Shown here: positions 29,104-46,218 of the stretch, piece after piece
How positions within the stretch are numbered: the first letter of the stretch is position 1
How the letters are laid out: each line of letters starts with the position of its first letter
Origin: Streptomyces capitiformicae
GTDB taxonomy: Bacteria > Actinomycetota > Actinomycetes > Streptomycetales > Streptomycetaceae
NCBI RefSeq assembly: GCF_002214185.1
Contig: NZ_CP022161.1
Coordinates: 9,679,486 to 9,743,485, forward strand
Direction of reading: 5' to 3'
Length of the DNA stretch: 64,000 nucleotides
The notes under the pieces: generated by a model
Told to the model about the DNA's origin: nothing
Databases searched by the model: none
Seen by the model: the letters and a program-made list of their open reading frames with translations, nothing else
Program-made: the position numbers and the translations under genes

Positions 29104-29139
29104 GTTGCACATCGAGCGCATGGTTGCGTGTTGTGCATC
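29104..29139 (+). promoter_or_regulatory. two GTTGC-N7-GC operator-like sites before the BCCT gene
   Basis: GTTGC-ACATCGA-GCGCA (29104-29120) and GTTGC-GTGTTGT-GCATC (29123-29139) lie 61-96 bp before the transporter start and match the motif found before most other betaine genes in the window. Confidence 0.55.
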
Positions 29140-29199
29140 ACAGTGTGGTGGTCCTGCGGGATAGGGACGTAACTCCTCACCCTCTTCGGAAGGCTTCGC

Positions 29200-30789
29200 A
29201 TGAGTACCGCGACGACGGAAAAGGGATCGGCTCCGAAACGGGTGGATCCCGCTGTTCTCTACATATCAGTGACGGTCTCCGCCCTCTTTGTGGCGTGGGG
29301 GGTCTTCTTCACCGACAACCTCGGCTCGGTGGCCGAGGCGACGCTCGCCCGTGTCATCGAGAACTTCGGCTGGCTCTTCGTACTGGCCAGCGCCGGCTTC
29401 GTGCTGCTGGCGGCCGTGCTGGCGTTCAGCCGGTTCGGTTCCATCCGGCTCGGCAAGGACGGTGACCGACCGGAGTTCAGCACCGTCTCCTGGGTGGCGA
29501 TGATGTTCAGCGCCGGCATGGGCATCGGTCTGATGTTCTACGGGGCCAGTGAGCCCCTCATGCGCATGTCCAGCCCGCCGCCGGGAACCGCCGAGGCGGG
29601 AACGGACGACGCGGCCCGGGTGGCATTGGAGTACTCGTATTTCCACTGGGCGATCCATCCCTGGGCGATGTATGCCGTCGCGGGTCTCGCGCTCGCCTAC
29701 TTCGGATTCCGCAAGAGCGGCAACAGCCTGATCAGCTCCGCGTTCCGGCCGCTGATCGGCGACCGGGTGGACGGACCACTGGGCAAGTCCATCGACATTC
29801 TGGCGATCTTCGCCACCCTCTTCGGCTCCGCCGTGTCCCTCGGTCTCGGCGCGTTGCAGATCAACAGCGGTCTGAACTCGCTCTGGGGGATCGACGACTC
29901 CACCGCCCTCGCGGTCTCGATCATCGCGGTCCTCACCCTCATGTTCGTGCTCTCCGCCCTCTCCGGGGTGCATCGCGGCATCCAGTGGCTGAGCAACGGC
30001 AACATGATCCTGGCCGCCCTCCTGCTGCTGTTCGTCTTCGTCGTCGGCCCCACGGTGTTCATCCTGAACAGCCAGACGGAGGCGATGGGCGGCTACCTGG
30101 CCTCGCTCCCGAAGATGAGCTTCATGACCGGAGCCTTCGGCGGCGGTGAATGGCTCTCCGGCTGGACGATCTTCTACTGGGCATGGTGGATCTCCTGGAC
30201 GCCGTTCGTGGGCACGTTCATCGCGCGGATCTCTCGCGGTCGTACGATCCGGGAGTTCATCGTCGGCGTGATCATCGCGCCGAGCGTGGTGAGCGTCGTG
30301 TGGTTCGCGATCCTCGGCGGTACCGCCCTGAACCAGGAACTCCACGGCGGCAAGCTGTCCGAGGCGGTCGCCAAGGGCGAGGAAGCCGGCCTCTTCGCCA
30401 CCCTGGAGAACCTGCCCTGGTTCCCCATCACCTCGGTGGTGGTGATCGTTCTGGTCGGCCTGTTCTTCGTCAGCGGTGCCGACGCGGCCTCCGTGGTGCT
30501 GGGCATGCTCTCCAGCCGGGGCAGTATGAGCCCCAGCCGCCCCGTCGTGATTCTGTGGGGTGTGCTGACCGGTCTGGTCGCGGCCGTGCTGCTGCTCGCC
30601 GGTGGCCTGGAGGCGGTCAAGCAAGTGGCCATCATCGCCGCCTTCCCGTTCCTCTTCGTGATGATCGGGATGTGCGTGTCCCTGGTGAAGGCGCTGAGCG
30701 CCGAGCCCCGCGTGAAACAGCCCGCGGTGCGGGACGACGGCGGCGCGAAGACGCCCGAGTTCCTGGCCGATAAGGAGACCGTGGCCTGA
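29200..30789 (+). CDS. BCCT-family choline/glycine betaine transporter
   Basis: 529-aa, 12-TM secondary carrier. BCCT hallmarks are GMGIGLMFYGASEPL, the HPWAMYAVAGLALAYFGFRK segment, and the aromatic signature WTIFYWAWWISWTPFVGTFI then ARISRGRTIREFIVG. It imports choline, betaine or carnitine by coupling to ion or proton gradients; from context choline or betaine is the likely substrate. It heads the betaine catabolic region. Tandem operator-like sites upstream suggest control with the cluster. Confidence 0.93.
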   Translation: MSTATTEKGSAPKRVDPAVLYISVTVSALFVAWGVFFTDNLGSVAEATLARVIENFGWLFVLASAGFVLLAAVLAFSRFGSIRLGKDGDRPEFSTVSWVAMMFSAGMGIGLMFYGASEPLMRMSSPPPGTAEAGTDDAARVALEYSYFHWAIHPWAMYAVAGLALAYFGFRKSGNSLISSAFRPLIGDRVDGPLGKSIDILAIFATLFGSAVSLGLGALQINSGLNSLWGIDDSTALAVSIIAVLTLMFVLSALSGVHRGIQWLSNGNMILAALLLLFVFVVGPTVFILNSQTEAMGGYLASLPKMSFMTGAFGGGEWLSGWTIFYWAWWISWTPFVGTFIARISRGRTIREFIVGVIIAPSVVSVVWFAILGGTALNQELHGGKLSEAVAKGEEAGLFATLENLPWFPITSVVVIVLVGLFFVSGADAASVVLGMLSSRGSMSPSRPVVILWGVLTGLVAAVLLLAGGLEAVKQVAIIAAFPFLFVMIGMCVSLVKALSAEPRVKQPAVRDDGGAKTPEFLADKETVA

Positions 30790-30851
30790 GCCGCCGCGTG
30801 CACGAATCCTTGACCGCCGCTCGTCCCGTCCACGATGCTTTGTTGCGCCAG

Positions 30852-30884
30852 GTGGGATGCGTGCCGTAATGAGAAACATCCCAC
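30852..30884 (+). promoter_or_regulatory. inverted repeat before the mycothiol dehydrogenase gene
   Basis: GTGGGATG (30852-30859) and CATCCCAC (30877-30884) form a perfect 8-bp inverted repeat with a 17-nt spacer, 29 bp before ATG 30913. It differs from the GTTGC motif, though a GTTGC half-site lies at 30842. Confidence 0.4.
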
Positions 30885-30912
30885 TGGATCTTGTACTAGC
30901 CGAGGAGCAGCC

Positions 30913-45076: not shown

Positions 45077-45128
45077 TTGGGCATTGCGCGTCGGTCAGAC
45101 CGAATGGGTCAGTGCGCAACAATCCACA

Positions 45129-45611
45129 TCAGCCATTGAAGGGGCACTTCTTGATGATGAAGAATGCTTTTCCGGGCTGGTCCACACCAAGAACTCCCTG
45201 GTTGCCGGGCCTTGAGCTGCCGACGACGAGGTCCGCGCCCTTGAACTGCTTGGTTTTGGAGTGCCACAGGACCCGGCCACCGGAATACTGGTAGAATCGC
45301 ACATCGCCGTTCTTGGCGACCTGGACGTACGCGGACGGGCCGCTGAGGTGCCCCTTGGCCTTGTATACCGTGCAGGTCAAGGCCTTGTAGGTCATGTAGA
45401 TGTTGTAGTTCTTCCCGACACAGAACCTGGCCTTTCGCGACGCGGGACCATCGGTGATACACTGCCCCGCCTTGAGCTTTTTGCCATTGGCCAGGCGATT
45501 TTTCGGCGCCGCGCTTGCAGGGCTGGCCACGCCCAGGGCGACCGCGGCCGCGACCGCGAAGACGGCCGCGTGACGCACAGGCCGGTAGCTGATTTTGAAA
45601 ATACGCGCCAT
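45129..45611 (-). CDS. small secreted protein with bulb-lectin-like repeat
   Basis: 160-aa secreted protein. Signal peptide MARIFKISYRPVRHAAVFAV, cleaved around ASPASA-AP. The mature part has four cysteines and a segment AYVQVAKNGDVRFYQYSGGR then VLWHSKT, resembling a degenerate beta-prism mannose-binding (bulb-lectin) repeat (Q-x-D-x-N-x-V-x-Y / W-x-S). Extracellular carbohydrate binding is plausible but the ligand residues are not all kept. The surrounding DNA is AT-richer than the window, hinting at transfer. Confidence 0.6.
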   Translation of the reverse strand: MARIFKISYRPVRHAAVFAVAAAVALGVASPASAAPKNRLANGKKLKAGQCITDGPASRKARFCVGKNYNIYMTYKALTCTVYKAKGHLSGPSAYVQVAKNGDVRFYQYSGGRVLWHSKTKQFKGADLVVGSSRPGNQGVLGVDQPGKAFFIIKKCPFNG

Positions 45612-45857
45612 GGCGCATTCCTCCCCGTTAATGAAGGGAACTCAGTCAATTTTGCTCCGTTCCCATTCCAGGCAGGATCTTATCCCAGGGACGCGTTCAC
45701 TGGGTGCCCCCCGAGTTCTTTTTGTAGTATCTTCACAATTCACTTGTCGAGACTTTTCGTGACGGTCCGCCCATCTCTCTAATGGGCCGCTTTGGCTGTC
45801 CGGGCTGAGGGGGGATCCAGGCGGTCCGGCTGTCGCGTCGGGTGGGCACCGGGCGCT

Positions 45858-46095
45858 GATCCTGTTCTTCCTCATCGGCGGCGCCTCCGCCACGATCGCC
45901 ATGGTGATCTGCGCGGCCCCGCCGGCGATCCGGATCACCGTGCACGCCATCCGGTCCGTGCCCGAGACCACGGTCGAGGCGGCCGACTTGCTCGGCGCGA
46001 CCCGGCGGCAGTCCCTGCTGCCGATGTCCAAGCGGACCAGGGTCATGCGCGTCAATCAGTCGATCATGGCTGCCCTCGCCATGGTCACGGACCGT
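45858..46095 (+). pseudogene. relic of a second OpuAB-type betaine permease
   Basis: Reads LILFFLIGGASATIAMVICA, IRITVHAIRSVPETTVEAAD, LLGATRRQSLLPMSKRT and VNQSIMAALAMVT. This matches the first permease domain encoded near 42520-42755 almost residue for residue, with a four-residue deletion after QSL. Both ends are missing. A decayed duplicate lying 2 kb downstream of the live copy. Confidence 0.88.
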
Positions 46096-46182
46096 TTCCC
46101 GGGCTGCTCGGCGGCTCGTTCTCCCGGCCGTTCCTCGACGTCATGGACCCCTTGACACCCACGTGCGCGGAAGGCACATTGA

Positions 46183-46218
46183 GTTGCGCAACCTGAATCA
46201 TGTTGCGTAGACAGCAAC
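46183..46218 (+). promoter_or_regulatory. operator-like sites before the dimethylglycine enzyme gene
   Basis: A perfect palindrome GTTGCGCAAC (46183-46192) and GTTGC-GTAGACA-GCAAC (46202-46218), the latter nearly identical to 32745-32761. They end 40 bp before ATG 46258. Confidence 0.65.

Follow-up and report, generated by a model that had tools for sequence, protein, structure and literature searches.

In Proteobacteria, choline and betaine genes are controlled by GbdR, a regulator of the AraC type, and by BetI, which is of the TetR type; the GbcAB system is made up of two components. Within the IclR family, the IclR and AllR proteins of E. coli are glyoxylate-responsive repressors, and BhcR is an activator. 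Here, a stretch of 64,000 nucleotides from Streptomyces capitiformicae (contig NZ_CP022161.1, positions 9,679,486 to 9,743,485 of the forward strand; in the following, this whole stretch is called the window) is analysed, in which a 36-bp tandem element recurs at the promoters of a betaine catabolic region. Judging from sequence comparison, the element is very probably the operator of an IclR-family repressor encoded at 35669–36466, which would control choline/betaine as well as C1 genes.

In a comparative study of the IclR family (Suvorova and Gelfand 2021, PMC8222616) the main text describes the motif GTTYCRYW3RYGRAAC, with 11 bases from GTT to AAC, for 54 groups, and tandem palindromes 18–22 nt apart, which its authors link to tetramers, for 94 groups; choline and betaine are not mentioned in that main text. 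For Arthrobacter, the text of PMC3534580 cites dimethylglycine/sarcosine clusters with a dimethylglycine oxidase and links purU and sdaA to methylglycine breakdown; IclR does not occur in it. In a search that lay mostly outside the subscription literature, no title or abstract opening was recognisable as describing an IclR regulator of actinomycete betaine catabolism, and an earlier prediction of such a regulon is possible.

The tandem element and its place in the betaine region

A sequence-only reading of the window had proposed that a 17-bp palindrome, GTTGC-N7-GCAAC, marks nearly every promoter of the region, and all copies it listed are present where it placed them: three are perfect (32745, 36533, 46202), two have one mismatch (29123, 32828), one has two (39243) and two have three (29104, 34423). 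Taken singly, this motif is not specific. With up to three mismatches it occurs 271 times in the window versus 279 expected, that is, without enrichment; 3 of the 11 perfect copies listed genome-wide lie in the betaine region; and the genome scan which that reading had suggested as a check, run with the 17-bp half alone at up to one mismatch, finds 207 matches (6 in the window) versus 429 for a reversed control pattern, which on its face speaks against a regulon. Because of this lack of enrichment, the statistics of the single motif were dropped as a basis and the double element was used instead.

What does recur is a unit of 36 bp in which one GTTGC-N7-GCAAC palindrome follows another at a distance of 19 bp, leaving a gap of 2 bp (as seen with the flanks printed); the sequence-only reading had caught only half of it. 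Every listed copy belongs to such a pair at exactly 19 bp, namely 29104+29123, 32726+32745, 32828+32847, 34423+34442, 36533+36552, 39224+39243 and 46183+46202. With up to three mismatches, the 36-bp double pattern is found at 4 places in the 10,989,391-base genome, all in the betaine region, and its reversed control at none. In a reference set of 80 loci, nearly all from Streptomyces and fetched via the IclR protein (84–90% identity; close relatives throughout, being the best 80 of 499), half-sites with up to two mismatches form 281 pairs at 19 bp, and no other distance between 5 and 40 gives more than 10.

A position matrix was trained on these 80 loci with the window left out, using training sites with at most four mismatches. 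In the window it returns nine double sites of 24.2–42.9 bits; the next score is 3.4 (overlapping a true site), followed by 1.6, while the reversed window reaches at most 12.5 bits and 100 first-order Markov windows reach 17.7. Two of the nine, at 30842 (before fdh) and 36458 (over the iclR start), had been overlooked in the sequence-only reading and were added by the matrix, so that each predicted transcription unit between the BCCT transporter and dimethylglycine oxidase, both included, has a double. The earlier statement that the motif always stands 20–130 bp before a start codon applies to eight of the nine doubles, the centres of which lie 26.5–128.5 bp upstream of the assigned starts; the ninth overlaps the start codon of iclR. 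Also confirmed are the IclR gene and the perfect half-site that lies between iclR and betA. The features of the region are listed below, the operators being those proposed here.

29104..29139, + strand: double operator before the BCCT transporter (matrix 24.3 bits; TTGAC box upstream)
29200..30789, + strand: BCCT transporter, betaine/choline type (PF02028; TIGR00842 above cut-off; NF047988 633 bits, just below the cut-off of 650)
30842..30877, + strand: double operator before formaldehyde dehydrogenase (matrix 24.2 bits; TTGAC box upstream)
30913..31998, + strand: S-(hydroxymethyl)mycothiol dehydrogenase, fdh (TIGR03451 700 bits, cut-off 513)
31995..32630, + strand: metallo-beta-lactamase-fold hydrolase (PF00753), putative formylmycothiol hydrolase
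32726..32761, + strand: distal double operator of the ferredoxin-reductase unit (matrix 42.9 bits; no TTGAC box)
32828..32863, + strand: proximal double operator of the same unit, 8 bp before ATG 32872 (matrix 34.3 bits; TTGACA at 32796)
32872..33234, + strand: Rieske-type ferredoxin, fdx (PF00355)
33198..34394, + strand: ferredoxin reductase, HcaD-like (PF07992, PF14759; NF042949 237 bits, below the cut-off of 450)
34423..34458, + strand: double operator before the Rieske oxygenase (matrix 32.6 bits; TTGAC box)
34486..35658, + strand: Rieske oxygenase, putative betaine demethylase (PF00848, PF00355; NF058607 GbcA 222 bits, below the cut-off of 670)
35669..36466, − strand: IclR-family regulator with GTG start, proposed repressor (PF01614, PF09339; TATAGT 6 bp before the GTG)
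36458..36493, − strand: double operator covering the iclR −10 box and start codon (matrix 33.2 bits)
36533..36568, + strand: double operator in the iclR/betA intergenic region (matrix 27.4 bits; conserved TAGCAT at 36575–36580)
36618..38288, + strand: choline dehydrogenase, betA (TIGR01810 860 bits, cut-off 732)
38292..39128, + strand: MTHFR-like protein (PF02219 25.5 bits, cut-off 24)
39224..39259, + strand: double operator before betB (matrix 32.2 bits; TTGAC box)
39285..40754, + strand: betaine-aldehyde dehydrogenase, betB (TIGR01804 585 bits, below the cut-off of 669)
40750..44871 (start approximate), + strand: betaine/choline-type ABC transporter genes for ATPase, two-domain permease and binding protein (TIGR01186 and TIGR03416 above cut-off; PF04069)
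46183..46218, + strand: double operator before dimethylglycine oxidase (matrix 34.0 bits; TTGACA box)
46258..48696, + strand: dimethylglycine oxidase-like enzyme (1pj5 1067 bits; DAO, FAO_M and GCV_T domains)
48734..49594, + strand: FolD (NF010789 482 bits, cut-off 401)

The start of fdh is probably ATG 30913 and not the mechanically assigned 30835; the TIGR03451 match begins at residue 31 of the longer open reading frame (ORF). The permease gene of the ABC transporter (41664–43880) is a 738-amino acid (aa) ORF with two transport-domain matches, i.e., a fused permease. Directly 3′ of folD, positions 49698–51665 encode StiP, TRSP and PELOTA RNA-binding domains, and the matrix finds no operator upstream of them.

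A profile model, R1, was built from 21 of the 80-locus sites in both orientations and applied to the whole genome at E ≤ 10, where 150 of 901 candidates were scored and sites may thus be missed. It returned eight window sites in register; the ninth, the betB site at 39224, was covered only by a partial match out of register (E 5.5). Beyond the window, the scored candidates yielded only the sites in the intergenic region between purU and an FdhF-like gene, which are taken up below.

Recurrence in other genomes

Comparison of orthologous promoters had been put forward as a check by the sequence-only reading, and the double element is indeed kept at the same genes in the 80 loci. Counting sites of at least 18 bits and relating loci with a site to loci with the gene (gene matches below 40% of query length excluded), the operator is found at the ferredoxin gene in 72 of 73 loci, at betA in 60 of 63, at formaldehyde dehydrogenase in 60 of 62, at betB in 59 of 61, at iclR in 71 of 80, at dimethylglycine oxidase in 18 of 19 and at BCCT in 9 of 11. 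At 21 bits or more, the 80 loci contain 530 sites, every locus having at least one, versus none in the reversed sequence. These counts are partly circular because the matrix was trained on the same loci, and are descriptive of placement; independent of the training are the results for the window and for the regions from other families, as well as those of the simple pattern (the double pattern in the genome, the 19-bp pairing and the orthologous promoters), which, without a matrix and at up to four mismatches, gives the same picture of placement. The Streptomyces genomes scanned with R1 may include species that are also represented in the 80 loci from which R1 was built. No gene was assigned to 44 sites, 31 of which lie within the first 900 bases of their locus, beyond proX, where the dimethylglycine oxidase gene presumably follows just outside the stretch; the remaining 13, beyond position 900, are unaccounted for.

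Six Streptomyces regions (L149–L154) show a second arrangement, with an IclR of 55–61% identity and sites on both sides of iclR. The Streptomyces genome G018 encodes three IclR copies and has operators in C1:551217–553729 and C1:8663453–8689983, a pattern resembling a regulon duplicated across the two chromosome arms. Two R1 matches lie outside such clusters (G348 C1:4309229 and G261 C1:4281579; L169, L170); tblastn finds no window-type gene there, and although unproven they are taken as chance, one of them scoring 28.5 by the matrix.

The element is also found in other actinomycete families. Forty regions from other genomes were taken down the ranked list, not at random, and scored from 14 bits with a maximum of eight sites each; 38 of them contain an IclR relative (48–76% identity), and in 31 of these 38 one or more sites reach 20 bits or above, located near betB, betA, dmg, purU, bcct, proX, fdx, fdh or iclR itself. 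Seven are without such a site; L172 reaches 19.0 at most, the operators of L187 lie just outside the region, the genomes of L161, L165 and L180 have R1 matches elsewhere, and those of L163 and L186 have none at E 0.3. Four more regions with an IclR of 46–51% identity have sites of 41–44 bits before dmg; one of the four, L250, is a wider cut of L187.

Presence of the element was then compared with that of the regulator in 394 genomes of the class, 71 of which encode this IclR at E 1e-60; 17 element candidates were scored per genome, and sites may be missed. At E 0.3 the element occurs in 56 of the 71 genomes with and 18 of the 323 without this IclR; at E 0.1 the figures are 48 and 5, at E 0.04 they are 42 and 0 (Fisher p 9e-38), and at E 0.01 they are 30 and 0. 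The threshold of E 0.04 was chosen after the fact and the genomes are related, not independent, so the p value is only a guide. In 43 chosen genomes (17 others of the same genus with a match, the 20 listed as lacking one, and 6 of the 53 in other families) scanned at E 0.5, the element is present in 23 of 23 with this IclR versus none of 20 same-genus genomes without it. Of the 18 positives lacking this IclR, 10 belong to family f25 and have small genomes (G044, G062, G114, G125, G135, G165, G175, G262, G333 and G372); their matches are weak (E 0.04–0.25) and may be due to chance or to a different IclR whose tandem operator is similar.

Promoters, predicted distant targets and the proposed repressor

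A TTGAC box lies 29–35 bp before the operator at 8 of the 11 sites of this genome, versus about 0.5% expected per seven offsets. In the 80 loci, counting sites with 40 flanking bases, the box precedes the proximal ferredoxin site in 72 of 72 cases, the fdh site in 60 of 60, the proximal betB site in 57 of 58, the oxygenase site in 34 of 35, the dmg site in 18 of 18 and the BCCT site in 9 of 9. On the opposite flank of these sites it occurs in 41 of 485 cases, all of them distal betB sites, which we read as putative promoters of divergent purU genes. Read by eye, a hexamer NANNNT follows after a 17-bp spacer in six of the eight promoters of this genome and after 18 bp at fdh. The operator would thus lie just downstream of the −10 hexamer, over the predicted transcription start, which is the position of a repressor, and its placement at most promoters suggests repression. 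At betA the operator precedes the conserved TAGCAT and would cover the −35 region; the one at iclR holds the conserved TATAGT 6 bp before GTG 36466, which points to a message that is probably leaderless and to self-repression.

Two further elements (C1:5981694 and C1:5981802; E 0.57 and 0.18; matrix 30.9 and 32.9 bits) lie 110 bp apart and 3.7 Mb away from the window, between divergent genes for PurU (TIGR00655 341 bits, cut-off 286) and a molybdenum oxidoreductase of the FdhF/YdeP family (TIGR01701 990 bits, cut-off 582). Loci were available for 30 of 41 purU matches in the other Streptomyces examined. Copies of the pathway type (71–81% identity) have the element in 11 of 11 cases and adjoin betB, betA, mthfr, dmg, oxy or iclR genes, whereas those of the housekeeping type (56–64% identity) have it in none of 19, the best score being 4.7. 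For the FdhF-like gene, a site is found in the flanks of 5 of 24 loci, all of them in or beside clusters or the copy of this genome itself; 19 are without a site, including two other copies of the same genome (C1:9339928 and C1:453092; L231, L240), which are 76% and 72% identical and have no operator nearby. The proposed regulon reaches these C1 genes, which would be a plausible exit for the methyl groups.

Two observations concern the surroundings of such genes. The cluster-linked FdhF-like gene of G348 (C1:8660936–8663223; L241, L242) gives its match in two adjacent pieces (residues 1–466 and 466–763). Downstream of purU, at about 5.98 Mb (L124:7979–8671), a 230-aa ORF aligns over residues 3–135 to positions 1–132 of the 450-position L-serine ammonia-lyase profile, the first third only, and may represent a disrupted or truncated sdaA.

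The regulator itself contains the HTH_IclR and IclR_C domains (PF09339 56 bits, PF01614 157 bits, both above the gathering score), and no second regulator was recognised when the coding-like ORFs between 26.9 and 49.6 kb were scanned; no gene of the AraC or TetR type was found there, and 45129–45611 has no Pfam match. BhcR is the best-scoring NCBIfam model, its 202 bits falling below the cut-off of 350. Of the six residues which we take to be the glyoxylate contacts of E. coli IclR, placed by alignment with 2o99 (offset 94), four are replaced (A203, A213, S151, S152; numbering counts the GTG) and two kept (S230, S232). W140 in the effector domain, aligned with a proline in IclR and AllR, is identical in all 38 relatives, those without sites included. 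Together, the replaced contacts and the invariant tryptophan would make a quaternary amine a more likely effector than glyoxylate.

According to the model proposed here, an IclR tetramer (a dimer of dimers) would bind both palindromes on one face of the DNA; sitting at the transcription start of most promoters it would block initiation, and at iclR, where the operator includes the −10 box and start codon, it would repress its own gene. Choline or a compound of the betaine pathway would bind IclR and release it from the operator, upon which uptake (BCCT, ABC), oxidation of choline to betaine (BetA, BetB), demethylation of betaine by the Rieske oxygenase with ferredoxin and reductase, mycothiol-dependent formaldehyde oxidation and dimethylglycine oxidation together with FolD would be expressed, as would, in trans, purU and the FdhF-like gene. 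Formaldehyde would become formate via the mycothiol-dependent dehydrogenase, perhaps with the beta-lactamase-fold protein, and methylene-folate would do so via FolD and PurU; formate could then be oxidised to CO2 by the FdhF-like enzyme, the activity of which is deduced from its family name only.

The best reading of these data is that proposed in outline by the sequence-only reading, one IclR controlling the choline/betaine genes; it accounts for the element at orthologous promoters, for its GTT-11-AAC class, for the co-occurrence over 394 genomes and for the presence of a single recognised regulator. The probability that the repeats are a chance similarity in promoter-like DNA is practically nil: the single 17-mer, being no commoner than expected, would fit, but chance is refuted by the confinement of the double pattern to these genes, the peak at 19 bp, the clear gap below the nine matrix sites and the low maximum of the Markov windows. 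It is very improbable that a different, unlinked regulator binds the element, with the linked IclR a bystander or controlling only itself. The assignment to IclR does rest on sequence evidence, the genomes of L165 and L180 have the element on another contig than IclR, and co-occurrence by itself does not tell IclR apart from the other genes of its cluster; the specific arguments are the tandem GTT-11-AAC architecture, typical of IclR proteins in the main text of PMC8222616, and the element overlapping the iclR start. The 20 same-genus genomes without this IclR also lack the element at E 0.5. Somewhat less remote, yet still unlikely, is that the same IclR binds the element as an activator or in both capacities, for instance via distal sites. 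The distal site upstream of fdx (32726), which has no TTGAC box, would suit such a role, as would the similarity to the activator BhcR; against it stand the proximal operators at or after the predicted transcription start, and the opposite-facing TTGAC toward purU at the distal betB site of 41 relatives' loci.

Several observations nevertheless weigh against the main reading of the element as the operator of an IclR repressor. The operator of the Rieske oxygenase is present in only 35 of 73 loci and thus clearly less constant than the others; TTGAC is absent at most betA (0/60), iclR (1/74), distal fdx (1/55) and distal betB (1/42) sites; and for the FdhF-like gene no −10 hexamer stands out at 17–18 bp. 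Among the genomes with this IclR, 15 of 71 are without the element at E 0.3, and none is found in the genomes of L163 and L186, the genome scans having covered only part of the candidates; the recognition helix shows the same degree of conservation whether or not a locus has sites. Finally, the regulon had been described as running from choline to glycine, which is only partly supported: the sarcosine oxidase gene soxB (C1:9778973; 641 bits, cut-off 529) has no operator, the 19-kb stretch around it peaking at −1.5 bits.

Comparison with known systems

The IclR repressor proposed here would govern a predicted regulon of ten transcription units with eleven operators and would connect betaine demethylation genetically to the disposal of formate; were this true, the formaldehyde and methylene-folate routes would both end in formate, which is then oxidised, under one IclR. 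A likely function can thereby be offered for a group of IclR proteins without a name, and the 36-bp element can be scanned for in other genomes. A wider scenario is put forward only tentatively, at a level of confidence that allows for the genome scan having scored part of the candidates: an old IclR repressor common to several actinomycete families might sense a quaternary amine of the choline pathway, perhaps via W140, and control the full mineralisation of choline methyl groups, its targets keeping the operator when they move.

As to the enzymes, the oxidase at 46258 is strongly similar to the dimethylglycine oxidase 1pj5, and the best solved-structure matches of the Rieske oxygenase, which falls below the GbcA cut-off, include the demethylase 4qup and carnitine monooxygenase; betaine is its presumed substrate. 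Unlike the two-component GbcAB, the putative betaine demethylase (32872–35658) would have three components, the oxygenase, a separate Rieske ferredoxin and the HcaD-like reductase. The regulator shares the IclR fold, by sequence, with IclR and AllR of E. coli and with BhcR, and differs from them in its target genes; with GbdR and BetI it would share control of the same pathway, and it differs from them in belonging to another protein family. Like the clusters cited in the text of PMC3534580 for Arthrobacter, the proposed regulon contains dimethylglycine oxidase and purU. The element agrees with the class described in the main text of PMC8222616 in having GTT-11-AAC (matrix positions 1–3 and 15–17, 20–22 and 34–36) and in its spacing of 19 bp, which falls within the 18–22 nt between centres of the tandem class, and deviates from that motif at position 4, where it has G instead of Y, and at the mirror position, where it has C. 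The proposed regulon would be new, with an operator of the known IclR kind.

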